This document shows positions 42,637 through 48,062 of a stretch of 64,000 nt of DNA, piece after piece. Position numbers and translations under genes: made by a program. Position 1 is the first letter of the stretch. Each line of letters begins with the position of its first letter. The notes beneath the pieces were generated by a model. It was given only the letters and a program-made list of their open reading frames with translations. It did not search any database and had not been told where the DNA came from. The stretch is from Chloroflexota bacterium (GTDB lineage Bacteria > Chloroflexota > Anaerolineae > Anaerolineales > VGOW01): contig JACPWC010000065.1 of assembly GCA_016197225.1 (NCBI GenBank), positions 1 through 64,000 on the forward strand. The letters are read 5' to 3'.

Positions 42637-44040
42637 CTATTTCGAATTGACGCTGTACTGTTCGCGGAGGGTCTTCGCCAGCGCCGCCGCCCGCTCCGGG
42701 GCCGTGCCCACGTAGCCGCGGGCGTCCATCAACGCCTTGAGTTTGTTGGGCTGAAGGTAGAAGAGGAGTTGCTGATCGGTGGCGATAAGGTTGGCCAGCG
42801 GGTTGGGCTTGCCGGCTTTGATCGCTTCCCACGCCTTCAGGCTGTGCTCACGCAAACGTTCGTGCATGCGCTGGCGGTCGGCCCCGGCTTTCACTATCGC
42901 CATAAGCACGCGCTCGGTGGCGGCGAAGGGGCCGTACATCTCAAGGTTGCGGGCGCAGGCGGCTTCGTCAATCGTCATCCCTTCCACAATTCGGGTCGCG
43001 GTGATCAGCATCTCATCAATCGCAATGAAGGCTTCGGGCAAAATCGCGCGGCGGTTGGCCGAGTCGTCGAGGGTGCGTTCGAGAAGCGACCCGGCGGCAT
43101 TGCTCCAGGCGACTTGCGGCAGGGCGGCGACGTAGCGAGCGAGGGAGCAAATCTTTTCGGCGTTGACCGGATTGCGTTTGAAGGGCATGGCGCTCGACCC
43201 GACCTGCTTTTCGCCAAACGGTTCAGCCGCCTCGCCAAAACCGGCAGACTGCATCACCCGCAGATCAAAGGCGAACTTGTGCAGGGCGGCGGCCAACCCG
43301 GCCAGGGCGGCCAGCATCGTGTAGTCCTGTCCGCGTGGATAGGTTTGGGTGGCGATAGAAAATGCTTCTAACCCAAGCGACCGCATCACCTGAGACTCGA
43401 GTTCGGCAGGCGTGAAGGGTGTGCCATCCAGAATTTCATCATACGAGGCCTGAGTCCCGACCGCGCCCTTGAGGCCTTTGCCCAGCAATTTCTTTCGCAG
43501 GTTGGTGAGCGCGTGGTGGTGCGTGAGCAGGTCTTGCGCGTAAACGGCCAGGCGATAGCCAAACGTCGTCGGCTCGGCGGGCTGAAGGTGAGTGTAGGCC
43601 ATGCACGCCAGATCGCGAGTCTGCTCAATGCGAGCCGCGAAGGCCAGCAAAAGTTGAGCGAGGCGATCCTGCACGAGCGCCAGGGCTTCGCGCTGGCCGA
43701 GCACGTCGGCGTTGTCGGTGATGTCGGCGCTGGTCGCGCCCCAGTGAATGATGCCGCCGCCGGTTTGGCACTGCTCGGCATAAGCGCGCACTTCGGCCAT
43801 CACGTCGTGGCCGATCTCTTTTTCGATTTCGAGCGAGCGAGCAATGTTGATCTCGCCGGCGTGGGCGCGCAAGTCGGCAACCTGCTCCGCCGTCACCAGT
43901 CCGGCTTGCTGTTGGGCCTCGGCCAGCGCGGCCCAGATCAGCCGCCAGCGTTTGCGCCGCCGTTCGTCCGACCACAGGGCGCGCATTTCGGGCGAGCCGT
44001 AGCGAGAGGAATAGGGCGAGTTATAGAAAGGTGTCGTCAT
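42637..44040 (-). CDS. purB: adenylosuccinate lyase
   Basis: It releases fumarate from SAICAR and from adenylosuccinate in purine synthesis. The 467-residue homotetrameric enzyme of the aspartase/fumarase superfamily has all three signature regions: HWGATSADITDNADV, TYLHQ-type region DLACMAYTHLQPAEPTTFGYR, and the superfamily signature GSSAMPFKRNPVNAEKI with the catalytic Ser loop. ATG 44040 gives the normal N-terminus; upstream frame extension runs into a hairpin repeat. It lies downstream of the Era fusion gene. Confidence 0.93.
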   Translation of the reverse strand: MTTPFYNSPYSSRYGSPEMRALWSDERRRKRWRLIWAALAEAQQQAGLVTAEQVADLRAHAGEINIARSLEIEKEIGHDVMAEVRAYAEQCQTGGGIIHWGATSADITDNADVLGQREALALVQDRLAQLLLAFAARIEQTRDLACMAYTHLQPAEPTTFGYRLAVYAQDLLTHHHALTNLRKKLLGKGLKGAVGTQASYDEILDGTPFTPAELESQVMRSLGLEAFSIATQTYPRGQDYTMLAALAGLAAALHKFAFDLRVMQSAGFGEAAEPFGEKQVGSSAMPFKRNPVNAEKICSLARYVAALPQVAWSNAAGSLLERTLDDSANRRAILPEAFIAIDEMLITATRIVEGMTIDEAACARNLEMYGPFAATERVLMAIVKAGADRQRMHERLREHSLKAWEAIKAGKPNPLANLIATDQQLLFYLQPNKLKALMDARGYVGTAPERAAALAKTLREQYSVNSK

Positions 44041-44050
44041 GGTAAAACGT

Positions 44051-44131
44051 CCACCACGAAGACCGCTTCGCGAGACACAAAGGGCCACTAAGAAATCTTT
44101 GTGAAACTTCGTGCCTTTGAGGCTTCGTGGT
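44051..44131. repeat. long CACGAAG hairpin repeat, copy 3
   Basis: The left arm begins CCACCACGAAGACCG and the right arm ends GAGGCTTCGTGGTT, with a CTTCGCGAG motif near the left. It sits 10 bp upstream of the purB start and between purB and the Era gene, in the 5' leader if purB has its own promoter. Confidence 0.85.
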
Positions 44132-44148
44132 TAAGTCATCATCAACCA

Positions 44149-45243
44149 TCACTCCTCACGATCATCATAGCCAAACCGCTTCACCGCGCGATCGTCCTGC
44201 CGCCAGCCTTCGCGGACTTTGACGTGCAGAGCCAGAAACACTTTGCCGTCAAGCTGGGCCTCGATTTCTTTGCGGGCCTGCTCGCCAATGGTTTTGAGCA
44301 TCGCGCCCTTCTTGCCGATGAGGATGCCCTTGTGGCTCTCGCGCTCCACGTAAATCACCGCGCTCACGTGGGCGGCCTTGCCTTCCGGCTCCTTGAACTC
44401 TTCGATCTCGACGGCGATTCCGTGCGGCACTTCATCTCGCAACTCAGCCAGCGCCGCTTCGCGGATCAACTCGGCGGCCAGGTCGCGCAGTTGAGCGTCG
44501 GTGACTTCGTCTTCGCCGTAATACTGCGGGCCTTCGGGCAGGCGGGCGACGAGCATAGGCGCGATCTTCTCCAGGTTGTCGCCGCGCGTCGCCGAGACCA
44601 GCATCCACTCGGCGTTTGGGGCCAGGGCGCGGAAAGCGTCGGAGTTTGACAGGACGTGCGCCGGTTTGAGGCGGTCGCTTTTGTTGAGCGCCAGGACGAC
44701 GGGAGTCTTGGGCGCGTGTCTGGCAATGAGTTCGGCAAGGCGTTTGTCTTCAGTCGTCGGCGGCTCGGAAACGTCGGCCAGCCACAGGATGACATCAGCG
44801 TCGGCGATGGCGCCTGTGGCAACCGACTGCATGTATTTGTCCAACGCTTGTTTGGGGCGATGAATGCCGGGGGTGTCTACAAAAATGATTTGCGCCTCAG
44901 CGGTTGTTAGTATGCCAAGTTGTTTGCGACGGGTGGTTTGCGGGCGCGGGGAGACGATGGCGACCTTTTGGCCGAGGAGGGCATTGAGCAAAGTGGACTT
45001 GCCCACGTTGGGGCGGCCCACCACCGCCACAAAGCCGGAGTGAAAGGTTGACCCGCCAGAGATGATGGCGACCAGCTTGAGTTTGTCGTTTTCCCGCAGG
45101 CGTCGCTCATCGGTGACAAGCTTGCCATTACGGACGGCAATATACAACTGCGGCTCGAGGCCGATTTTGATCAGCGCCTCTTTGACGGTGAGGCCGGGTT
45201 CAACTTCGTAGGTTTTATCGCGATAGATGATGATGGCAGGCAC
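44149..45243 (-). CDS. era: GTPase Era fused to an N-terminal ThiS/MoaD-like domain
   Basis: Era binds GTP and the 3' end of 16S rRNA in 30S assembly. Residues about 68-364 are a full Era: G1 GRPNVGKST, G2 region RPQTTRRKQLG, G3 DTPGIH, G4 NKSD, G5 VSATRG and a C-terminal KH domain (GILIGKKGAMLKTIGEQ). Residues 1-64 are instead a ThiS/MoaD-type beta-grasp (YRDKTYEVEPGLTVKEAL, ENDKLKLVAIISGG) ending in the Gly-Gly normally used as the free, activated C-terminus for sulfur transfer. The frame runs straight on (ISGGSTFHSGFVAVVG), with no Met where Era should start. One TGA-to-TCA change could have fused two genes. Confidence 0.92.
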   Translation of the reverse strand: MPAIIIYRDKTYEVEPGLTVKEALIKIGLEPQLYIAVRNGKLVTDERRLRENDKLKLVAIISGGSTFHSGFVAVVGRPNVGKSTLLNALLGQKVAIVSPRPQTTRRKQLGILTTAEAQIIFVDTPGIHRPKQALDKYMQSVATGAIADADVILWLADVSEPPTTEDKRLAELIARHAPKTPVVLALNKSDRLKPAHVLSNSDAFRALAPNAEWMLVSATRGDNLEKIAPMLVARLPEGPQYYGEDEVTDAQLRDLAAELIREAALAELRDEVPHGIAVEIEEFKEPEGKAAHVSAVIYVERESHKGILIGKKGAMLKTIGEQARKEIEAQLDGKVFLALHVKVREGWRQDDRAVKRFGYDDREE

Positions 45244-45255
45244 GAGGTGATTGTA

Positions 45256-47442
45256 CTACGGCAAGCCAGTGTCAGGAATGGTTGGCGTATTCGACGGTTT
45301 AGCTTTGGATGCCCTGACGCGGCGAACATCGGCCCAGATTAGCAGAGCCGAAATGAGGAGCGTCGCCGCGCTGAGGGCGAGGCCAACCTTGAACGCCGGC
45401 GACTCGAACTGAAAGACGACCTTGTGGCGGCCCGGCGAAACTTGCACAGCCATCAGGCTGGCCGGGAAAGTCAAGTAGAGGGGTGGATCCTCAAAACCAA
45501 AGTACACATTCAAAGCCGTACTAACCGTTGTCAGGTCTGCCCGCCGATCATCCACCCACACTTGCCACCCCGAAAACCACGCTTCTGACACGACCAACAG
45601 GCTGGCTTCCTCGCCCTCCATTTCCACCAGGAGACGGTTAGGCCCGTCGCGCCGGGCGACGGGGGCGGCGGTCACGTCCGCCAATGCTATTGGAGTCTGC
45701 GCCCTGGCCCGGTCAACCGGCAAATAAAATGCGTAAGGGAAACTGTCTCGATTGCGCCAGACGTTCACTGAGTCGAACGTCTGCAACAGATCGGCGTTTG
45801 GCAAACCCGGCAGATCGGTGTTCAAAATGACCCAATAGGTGGGCGGCAAAGAAATGGCATCTTCCTGGCCGATCTGCTGAGTGGCGCGCGCCGAACGCCA
45901 GCCGTCAACAATGCTGAAAAGGCGCAAGCCGAGTTCGTAACCGGTAATCGAGCCGTTCTCCGTGACCGCCAGCGCCGTGCTAATTCCGTACGGGCCTGGA
46001 TCATTTTCTCTCAGCCACCTCAAGGCATCTTCTCCGTCAGGCGACGACTCTGCACTCAGGGACACCATCTCTTTGTGAGCCTGATACACATCGTTGACGG
46101 CCAGGCCGGCCCCGACCACGACCAGGCTACTCAACAGCGGCCCCAGGCGAATAACAAACTGTTGCTGGCCCGGCGCGGTGAAGATTGACAGCAGTGTTTG
46201 AGATGAGCGCAGTGAAGCTAAAAGCTCATCCAAGCCAAATGCGCCCAGGAAGATCAAGAAGAGGCCGCCGACGCTGAGCGCCCGGCCCGGCCAGCGGAAT
46301 TGAAACAGCAACGGCAGGGCGCGGTAAATCTCTTTGACAAACGAATGGTTCAGGTCGGCCCAGGCCAGCATTAGCAAGAAGCACAGCCCAAAGGCGACGA
46401 TCTGCTTGCGGCGGCCACGTCGAAAGGCCGGCGCCAGAAACAGCGCGAAAAGGAACGGGCTGACGCCAACGTAGCGATAGCTCTCTTGAATGTACGGCGC
46501 TTTGCCTAACAGTGACGTGACGTAGAAGTCGTGATCGGACACGATGTAGTTGAGGAGCGCATCAGCCGGTTTCTGCGAGCCTTCAACTTCAACATCGGAC
46601 CCAAATCCGCCGTCGTTGCGAATCGCGCCTCGTGAGGCCAACTGGGGGAAAAGCTGGAGGGCAATCAACCCTAATGCCAACAGACCAGCCGCCAGGTATC
46701 TCAAGCCCGCCCTCACGTTGAGGCTGGGCGTTGCCGACCACTCAACTGCGTTGATCGCCACAATGATCAGAATAGACGCCAGGCCGTACAGTTGGTAATA
46801 CAAATTCCCGGCGAAGAAAAACATGGCTTGAGCCAAAGCGGCTAAAACGAGGGCGGTGTAACTCCGGCTTTGGCCGACCCACAGAATCGAAGCAACCGAC
46901 CAGGGCAACCAGCCTAACGCAAACGACAACTGAAGTTGGCCGACCGGGAGATGCGAGACAATTGCTCCCGACAGCATGTACAGCAGGCCGCACCACAAGC
47001 GCGTGACCGCCTGAAAGCCGAGTTGCCGCGCCATGACCCACGCCCCCAGGCCGGCCACGCCAAAGTTGAGGGCCACCGCAACTTTGCTCCCGTTAATCAC
47101 GCCCCAGATCAACATGGGCAATGACAGAAAGGGATTGAACACAAAGAGAAAAGGGTCGGCGATGAGGGAACGCCCGGTGCCCGCCGTTGCATTCCAGAGT
47201 GGAAAGTCTGTCCCGTTTTTCAACGCCTGAATAAACGGCGCGATCACGCCTACGTGAGTCTGGTACTCATTCCCCGGCAGGCGGCGGGCGGGGTCAAAGT
47301 TCAACAGGGGCCGGGCGATGAGCCAGGCGACAAAAGCGATCAAGGCTAATTCCACCAGCGTTCCCCAGTGGCGAAAGCGAACAGCCCTGATTCGCACAAG
47401 CACGGTTTTGATTGGGGATTCGCGCATCACTGGATTCTTCAC
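45256..47442 (-). CDS. YfhO-family membrane protein
   Basis: The 728-residue protein has about 12 or more hydrophobic helices and a periplasmic C-terminal domain. YfhO features include RRLPGNEYQTHVGVIAPFIQALKNGTDFPLWNATAGTG, GAIVSHLPVGQLQLSFALGWLPW, and the C-terminal strand SLLVVSEAWFSGWQVWVDDRRADL followed by a final TM. YfhO-type GT-C proteins attach sugars to lipid-linked polymers such as lipoteichoic acid. The start may be GTG 47442 or ATG 47427; neither has a good ribosome site. It lies 12 bp upstream of the Era gene. Confidence 0.85.
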   Translation of the reverse strand: MKNPVMRESPIKTVLVRIRAVRFRHWGTLVELALIAFVAWLIARPLLNFDPARRLPGNEYQTHVGVIAPFIQALKNGTDFPLWNATAGTGRSLIADPFLFVFNPFLSLPMLIWGVINGSKVAVALNFGVAGLGAWVMARQLGFQAVTRLWCGLLYMLSGAIVSHLPVGQLQLSFALGWLPWSVASILWVGQSRSYTALVLAALAQAMFFFAGNLYYQLYGLASILIIVAINAVEWSATPSLNVRAGLRYLAAGLLALGLIALQLFPQLASRGAIRNDGGFGSDVEVEGSQKPADALLNYIVSDHDFYVTSLLGKAPYIQESYRYVGVSPFLFALFLAPAFRRGRRKQIVAFGLCFLLMLAWADLNHSFVKEIYRALPLLFQFRWPGRALSVGGLFLIFLGAFGLDELLASLRSSQTLLSIFTAPGQQQFVIRLGPLLSSLVVVGAGLAVNDVYQAHKEMVSLSAESSPDGEDALRWLRENDPGPYGISTALAVTENGSITGYELGLRLFSIVDGWRSARATQQIGQEDAISLPPTYWVILNTDLPGLPNADLLQTFDSVNVWRNRDSFPYAFYLPVDRARAQTPIALADVTAAPVARRDGPNRLLVEMEGEEASLLVVSEAWFSGWQVWVDDRRADLTTVSTALNVYFGFEDPPLYLTFPASLMAVQVSPGRHKVVFQFESPAFKVGLALSAATLLISALLIWADVRRVRASKAKPSNTPTIPDTGLP

Positions 47443-47456
47443 TTTCGTCTTTGAAT

Positions 47457-48062
47457 TCAGCCCGCCATACCAGAGAGAAAATCATCCAGGTCTTCAAAAG
47501 AGATCGGGCGTGGGTGTGTCAAAACGTGTGGGATGAGATCGAAGGCCATGAGGCCAATCAGATCGGCGTGGAGTTGAAAAGTTGGGAGGCAGGCCGAGAG
47601 CCGGGACGGGAAGTCGCCGCCCGGAGTGATGGCGTGGTCGGACTGAGAAACGATTTGGATGGCGGCTGAGAGGAGTGAACCGGGGAAGTCGGCTTCCCCG
47701 GCAGAGGCGGCGGCAAAGGCTAGAGGCGGCACGGCCAGATCAAGTTCCTTCAAAAACAGTTGGTCTTCCGATCCATCTACCCAGACTCCCATCGCGTCGG
47801 ATCGAGGATAGAGCAGGCCGCTCCCGGCCATCCAGTCGAGGGCGTCGAGACCCTGATAGAGTTTGCCAAGATCGTCGGCGGCCATGACGGGGAAGAACGG
47901 CGCGCGCGTCTCGAAGCGCGGGTAAGCGTAACGGGCGACGACGGGCGAGAACGAGCGCGCGGCCAACCCGGCCAGATGCTCTGCGCCCTCACCGCTGACA
48001 ACAAACGTGAGCGTGCCGAGCGAGAGGCAGTGATAGGGAAAGGTTTCGTGAGGAGGAAGCAC
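47457..48062 (-). CDS. protein of unknown function downstream of a methyltransferase
   Basis: The start is taken as GTG 48062, six bases after the preceding gene's stop with AAGG between. The frame is open further upstream only as a shadow of that gene. The 201 residues read VLPPHETFPYHCLSLGTLTFV, GLDALDWMAGSGLLYPRSDAM, DLAVPPLAFAAASAGEADFPG and DLIGLMAFDLIPHVLTHPRP. It is soluble and not recognised. Coupling to the methyltransferase gene is likely. Confidence 0.65.
   Translation of the reverse strand: MLPPHETFPYHCLSLGTLTFVVSGEGAEHLAGLAARSFSPVVARYAYPRFETRAPFFPVMAADDLGKLYQGLDALDWMAGSGLLYPRSDAMGVWVDGSEDQLFLKELDLAVPPLAFAAASAGEADFPGSLLSAAIQIVSQSDHAITPGGDFPSRLSACLPTFQLHADLIGLMAFDLIPHVLTHPRPISFEDLDDFLSGMAG

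Follow-up and report, generated by a model that had tools for sequence, protein, structure and literature searches.

Eukaryotes cut ubiquitin from ribosomal protein precursors. In Ubi1/eL40 and Ubi3/eS31 (UBA52 and RPS27A), such precursors being found in nearly all eukaryotes, a ubiquitin fold that ends in Gly-Gly is followed by a protein of ribosome production, and the two halves are parted by proteolysis. Ubl-MoaE fusions, including those of Chloroflexi, are cut by JAMM proteases exactly after Gly-Gly, and this cleavage is required for function (PMC4443979; PMC8832034). In the DR2607/DRJAMM and SAMP1-MoaE/HvJAMM1 pairs, an N-terminal beta-grasp carrier and its Gly-Gly precede a complete second protein, which is the carrier's own enzyme. 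As for the sulphur carrier TtuB of Thermus thermophilus, it works with the partner TtuA and the activator TtuC, and TtuA uses its free C-terminal thiocarboxylate (PMC7138817). TtuB is a protein modifier in Thermus as well, and loss of a JAMM protein there leads to aberrant TtuB conjugates and to about half the thiouridine (PMC3980101). Fusions of the GTPase Era were termed extremely rare in a 2023 review, whose list of partners comprises YbeY, RNase III and a few more domains, with no carrier among them (PMC10582724).

The window, i.e. the whole stretch of 64,000 nucleotides analysed here, contains a single open frame of 364 residues on the minus strand (44149-45243, GTG start, no internal stop codon), in which a beta-grasp carrier (residues 1-64) ending in Gly-Gly runs into a complete Era with no Met between them (Table 1). 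This arrangement, a sulphur-carrier domain with an internal Gly-Gly joined to a complete Era, was the central claim of the preliminary description, and the frame, Pfam, NCBIfam and the fold all agree with it. We have high confidence that the ttuB::era fusion is real in the assembly, the one draft from which it is known (4.8 Mb, 126 contigs, 98% complete). With its N-terminal Ubl, its Gly-Gly end and a complete second protein directly after, ttuB::era is a variant of the Ubl-GG-X linear fusions. It shares its layout and the presence of JAMM with the MoaD-MoaE systems, but its second protein is a ribosome-assembly GTPase rather than the carrier's own enzyme, and its cut is a predicted one. It also resembles YbeY-Era and RNase III-Era in bearing an extra domain on Era, at the N-terminus as for YbeY; however, those partners are RNases, whereas the domain joined to Era in the window is a carrier, a partner that offers a potential cut site and is not named by the 2023 review.

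Table 1. Features of the fusion locus in the window
Feature	Position	Strand	Remarks
TtuB-like ubiquitin-like carrier domain	45052..45243	-	residues 1-64, GTG start, I-S-G-G end; Pfam, PDB, AlphaFold, Foldseek
Complete Era (GTPase and KH domain)	44149..45051	-	residues 65-364 and stop codon; NF000908, motifs, copy count, N-termini
Junction GGC GGG then TCA ACC (Gly-Gly then Ser-Thr)	45046..45057	-	linker of zero length; cleavage by JAMM predicted after the second Gly
TACAAT, -10-like element	45250..45255	-	6 nt upstream of the carrier start; direct reading
purB (adenylosuccinate lyase-like)	42637..44088	-	syntenic marker on the other side; after era in genus-mates and some order relatives
YfhO-like membrane protein gene	45256..47442	-	between gene X and the fusion; Pfam YfhO 6.1e-9
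Gene X	47457..48062	-	start codon approximate; tblastn 52% to the G004 protein; precedes the carrier in relatives too

When the carrier part is searched alone, residues 11-64 match Pfam ThiS (5.9e-7), and the first hit of a PDB sequence search is TtuB (5ztb_E, 1.3e-6). The AlphaFold model of residues 1-64, built with 29 relatives, has the beta-grasp fold (pLDDT 93; strands 3-7, 10-14, 34-38, 41-43 and 54-59, helix 20-26); the structural match on which the preliminary description had staked its reading is therefore there. Its top solved match in Foldseek is Thermus TtuB (5gha_F, E 9.6e-6, TM 0.81), with 5ztb also among the best. The initial ThiS/MoaD-like label holds as to the beta-grasp sulphur-carrier type, but an identity as ThiS or MoaD was rejected, TtuB being closer by both sequence and fold in the PDB. 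Judged from its sequence, the fused carrier is a descendant of TtuB-like proteins, and it shares with Thermus TtuB the sequence, the fold and the SGG end. Unlike in TtuB, Gly-Gly is internal: Gly63-Gly64 run into Ser65, followed by the rest of Era, and no free C-terminus is encoded. In most relatives, TtuB orthologues of the same class adjoin TtuA, whereas the window's genus has none. As both the free Gly-Gly end and the TtuA partner are absent, we do not class the fused carrier as a working TtuB. Alignments mixing carriers with Eras smeared the former across Era and were excluded from folding; the carrier half of a model of the full-length fusion therefore has low confidence, too low to place the two domains relative to each other.

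The Era half is complete. Residues 67-359 match the NCBIfam model of GTPase Era (NF000908, 9.8e-109), KH_2 is also found, and all G-motif and KH residues that are invariant in 24 relatives are kept. It is the sole Era copy in the genome, the remaining matches being GTPases that are 27-38% identical. It has no start codon of its own at the native N-terminus, and the next in-frame start is the GTG at 45030, inside strand 1. An independent Era start within the frame was rejected: only GTGs are available, all within strand 1, and no ribosome-binding site was seen at these in-frame GTGs.

The fusion is rare. None of the 60 relatives searched has a fused carrier-Era frame. The carrier is present in 167 of the 396 genomes of the class, and no further fusion was found in these 396, the long open frames that were read ending soon after Gly-Gly. 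Carrier frames of more than 300 residues in G292, G159, G360 and G268 were rejected as fusions, since they end shortly past Gly-Gly and are open upstream. In 400 genomes of the phylum, there was no further case among the matches listed, a long frame in G546 being left out. A scan of 84,980 species with a junction pattern (degenerate DNA for Gly-Gly-x-x-Phe-His-Ser-Gly-Phe-Val, with other residues possible at Ser) gave 79 matches in unrelated frames and none in Era, the pattern catching only joins of exactly the window's length and the scanned set possibly omitting the window's own records.

How the two genes came together can be read from their neighbourhoods. In four relatives of the order (G026, G060, G038 and G013), the gene string is carrier-ttuA-(queF)-yhhQ-era-purB, as far as the stretch examined covers it, and in G026 and G060 gene X lies ahead of the carrier. 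The relatives' carrier neighbour is TtuA by its PDB match to solved TtuA (2.4e-90); the last gene is one which we take to be purB in the window from our own reading of its sequence. These neighbourhoods show X-ttuB-ttuA-(queF)-yhhQ-era-purB as the original arrangement. The window's genus has lost ttuA and, progressively, whatever else separated ttuB from era, with X-carrier-yhhQ-era-purB in G004, X-carrier-79 bp-era-purB in G002 and X-(yfhO-like gene)-carrier::era-purB in the window. The adjacent but separate carrier genes of G002 and G004 are what had been predicted for relatives. The yfhO-like gene is absent from the corresponding place in the genus-mates, and two remaining genus-mates with incomplete assemblies have neither carrier nor era. 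A search with a real TtuA protein found no TtuA in any of the genus's five genomes, of which three are 92% complete or more, and a TIGR00269 search of the window's genome found none either. We infer that the tRNA-modification genes separating carrier from era were lost one step at a time, ending in the fusion.

The residues across the junction are LVAIISGGSTFHSGF. After Gly-Gly the fused frame reads Ser-Thr-Phe-His-Ser-Gly, and Era of G004, the nearest relative, begins Met-Pro-Phe-His-Ser-Gly, the window's TCA (Ser65) occupying the position of the G004 start codon, ATG. Era of G002 could begin one codon earlier (TTG AAT ACT TTC), and the G002 carrier ends Gly-Gly-stop. Because of this match to the G004 Era start and to the G002 carrier end, a cut after Gly64 would restore both native proteins. 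We have high confidence that the fusion arose by a deletion that kept both native ends without a linker; it is preferred over a point mutation because the genus-mates show a shrinking carrier-era spacer. The suggestion that a stop codon was lost (TGA to TCA) fails on the same ground and on another: TCA sits where relatives start Era, and TGA there would leave Era without a start before the GTG at 45030, inside the first beta-strand. Upstream, each of the three genus members compared keeps the TACAAT box 6-7 nt ahead of its carrier start, a position that suggests a leaderless transcript beginning at the carrier.

The C-termini of related carriers bear on whether such a precursor might be processed. 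Gly-Gly is invariant in all 111 distinct related carriers; 59 stop directly after it, 51 carry 1-25 extra residues and one carries Era, in a sample that is non-random, its last 20 loci having been picked partly for longer open frames. The tails share no common sequence, and 40 of the 83 carriers with ttuA directly downstream are tailed. Tailed loci include L046 (G057), L085 (G026), L086 (G060) and L237 (G262). As TtuA works with a thiocarboxylate at the carrier's free C-terminus (PMC7138817), these tails must be trimmed. Among 80 genomes that are at least 90% complete, Prok-JAB proteins (cut-off E under 1e-10) are found in 34 of the 37 with tailed carriers and in 18 of the 43 with untailed ones (p 1.9e-6). 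The median p is 0.0017 when each genus gives a single genome and 0.036 when each family does, and JAMM is present in 15 of 18 families with any tail against 6 of 17 without (p 0.006), although such thinning removes relatedness only partly and shared ancestry weakens the link. From the joint occurrence of tailed TtuB and JAMM we predict that bacterial tRNA thiolation includes a step of precursor processing, of which, for TtuB, we know of no description.

The window's genome encodes two JAMM proteins with intact metal-binding HxH...SxxD motifs (HSHPDHPAQASEYD and HSHPAGPPTPSATD) and one E1-like ThiF-rhodanese protein. It also has two further carrier-GG-X fusions, MoaD-MoaE (L104:1358-2083), with the classic layout of a JAMM substrate, and MoaD-DUF4395 (L099:9957-10796 on contig C65, about 10 kb past the window), in which a MoaD-like domain, Gly-Gly and a DUF4395 membrane domain form one frame. 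The latter directly follows a JAMM gene, with cysM-like, rhodanese and ThiF-rhodanese genes nearby. The JAMM genes are likely to have substrates other than carrier-Era.

The carrier half has remained under constraint. In pairs with the window's copy within the genus, dN/dS is 0.20-0.26 for the carrier and 0.16-0.24 for era, rough values given that synonymous sites are near saturation, that the carrier is short and that time before and after the fusion is averaged; of the three carriers compared in the genus, the fused one has changed least. This constraint points to a carrier that would still be in use after the fusion. Like the window's genus, G017 and G057 (L041 and L046) lack TtuA, and they keep a separate TtuB-like carrier gene. 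Such retention makes a TtuA-independent role of the carrier likely in these two genomes, and it seems that TtuB-like proteins do more than serve TtuA.

It is tempting to propose that the locus is a natural, lineage-specific deletion fusion encoding a ubiquitin-like precursor, to be split by JAMM after Gly-Gly into carrier and Era, and on balance we lean slightly towards this reading. The carrier's promoter and start codon would drive the synthesis of one fused protein, from which a JAMM metalloprotease would release a carrier whose Gly-Gly end is free, together with a native-length Era beginning at Ser65. The ThiF-rhodanese E1 might then adenylate the carrier, making it a sulphur donor or a protein modifier for a partner that would not be TtuA, as TtuA is absent, and Era would do its normal work in 30S assembly. 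Between the two options initially put forward, release by cleavage or a structural domain, cleavage is better supported by the tails, the tail-JAMM association and the other Ubl fusions of the genome. Alternatively, a carrier that has lost its TtuA role might stay uncut, its folded domain being tolerated at the N-terminus of Era, doing no sulphur chemistry and heading to loss. The absence of TtuA from the genus and the progressive deletions at the locus would fit, and Era is known to carry N-terminal additions, YbeY for instance (PMC10582724), such that an uncut fusion could work too. Nevertheless, we consider this unlikely: with its low dN/dS, its limited divergence and its Gly-Gly kept, the carrier is not decaying, the ttuA-less G017 and G057 retain it as a separate gene, JAMM is present, and the other carrier-GG-X fusions of the genome share the layout.

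An assembly or consensus artefact, the genes being truly separate and the intergenic stretch collapsed or miscalled, is improbable in our view. The draft does consist of 126 contigs, no second genome has the fusion, and the repeat-rich 79 bp spacer of G002 at the same place is a collapsible kind of sequence. However, the site lies centrally in a contig of 92,881 bases and is flanked by X and purB as in relatives, and carrier and Era are joined in frame, each native end being exact. A single wrong base would not suffice, as a stop codon at the junction again leaves Era startless before the GTG at 45030 in its first strand. We are most sceptical of a functional coupling, in which the carrier would stay attached or be released in a regulated manner, JAMM activity or carrier charging controlling Era and 30S assembly. 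That the sole Era copy has no start of its own would suit such control; precedents may be found in eukaryotic ubiquitin, which may be a folding aid in cis on ribosomal proteins (PMC6721733), and in archaea, where JAMM release activates MoaE (PMC4443979). Yet it is without positive evidence and would concern one species only, and the genes met by deletion of the intervening stretch rather than through a conserved partnership. The preliminary description had also raised a link between sulphur transfer, for example tRNA thiolation, and 30S assembly; this stands as ancestry, TtuA adjoining the carrier elsewhere, but there is no positive evidence for a working link, TtuA being missing from the whole genus.

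If the precursor is cleaved, as we favour, a bacterial ubiquitin-like protein shares one frame with a ribosome-assembly factor, in a separately arisen parallel to ubiquitin-eL40 and ubiquitin-eS31, and the intermediate stages of the fusion are still readable in sister genomes. The parallel has its bounds: Era is an assembly factor and not a ribosomal protein, the origins are independent, cleavage is a prediction here, and ttuB::era occurs in one species. Taken to its full extent, it would make the locus a bacterial counterpart of those precursors, with the carrier held on Era until JAMM release, and carrier supply, charging or JAMM activity setting the amount of active Era and coupling the modifier system to 30S assembly; this seems rather improbable to us.

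Gene X is conserved, of about 200 residues, and lies ahead of the carrier in several genomes of the order (L036:3615-4196; L037:3100-3702); a Pfam search with its G004 homologue gave no match. In the 79 bp spacer of G002 (L036:3346-3420) there are short near-repeats as well as inverted repeats (AATTCACAATG / CATTGTGAATT), which might mark a small mobile element or one prone to slippage. In G017 (L041:2848-3507), a NUDIX-like frame runs without a stop into a TtuB-like carrier that has its own TACAAT and ATG, possibly a carrier fused at its opposite end so that Gly-Gly stays free.
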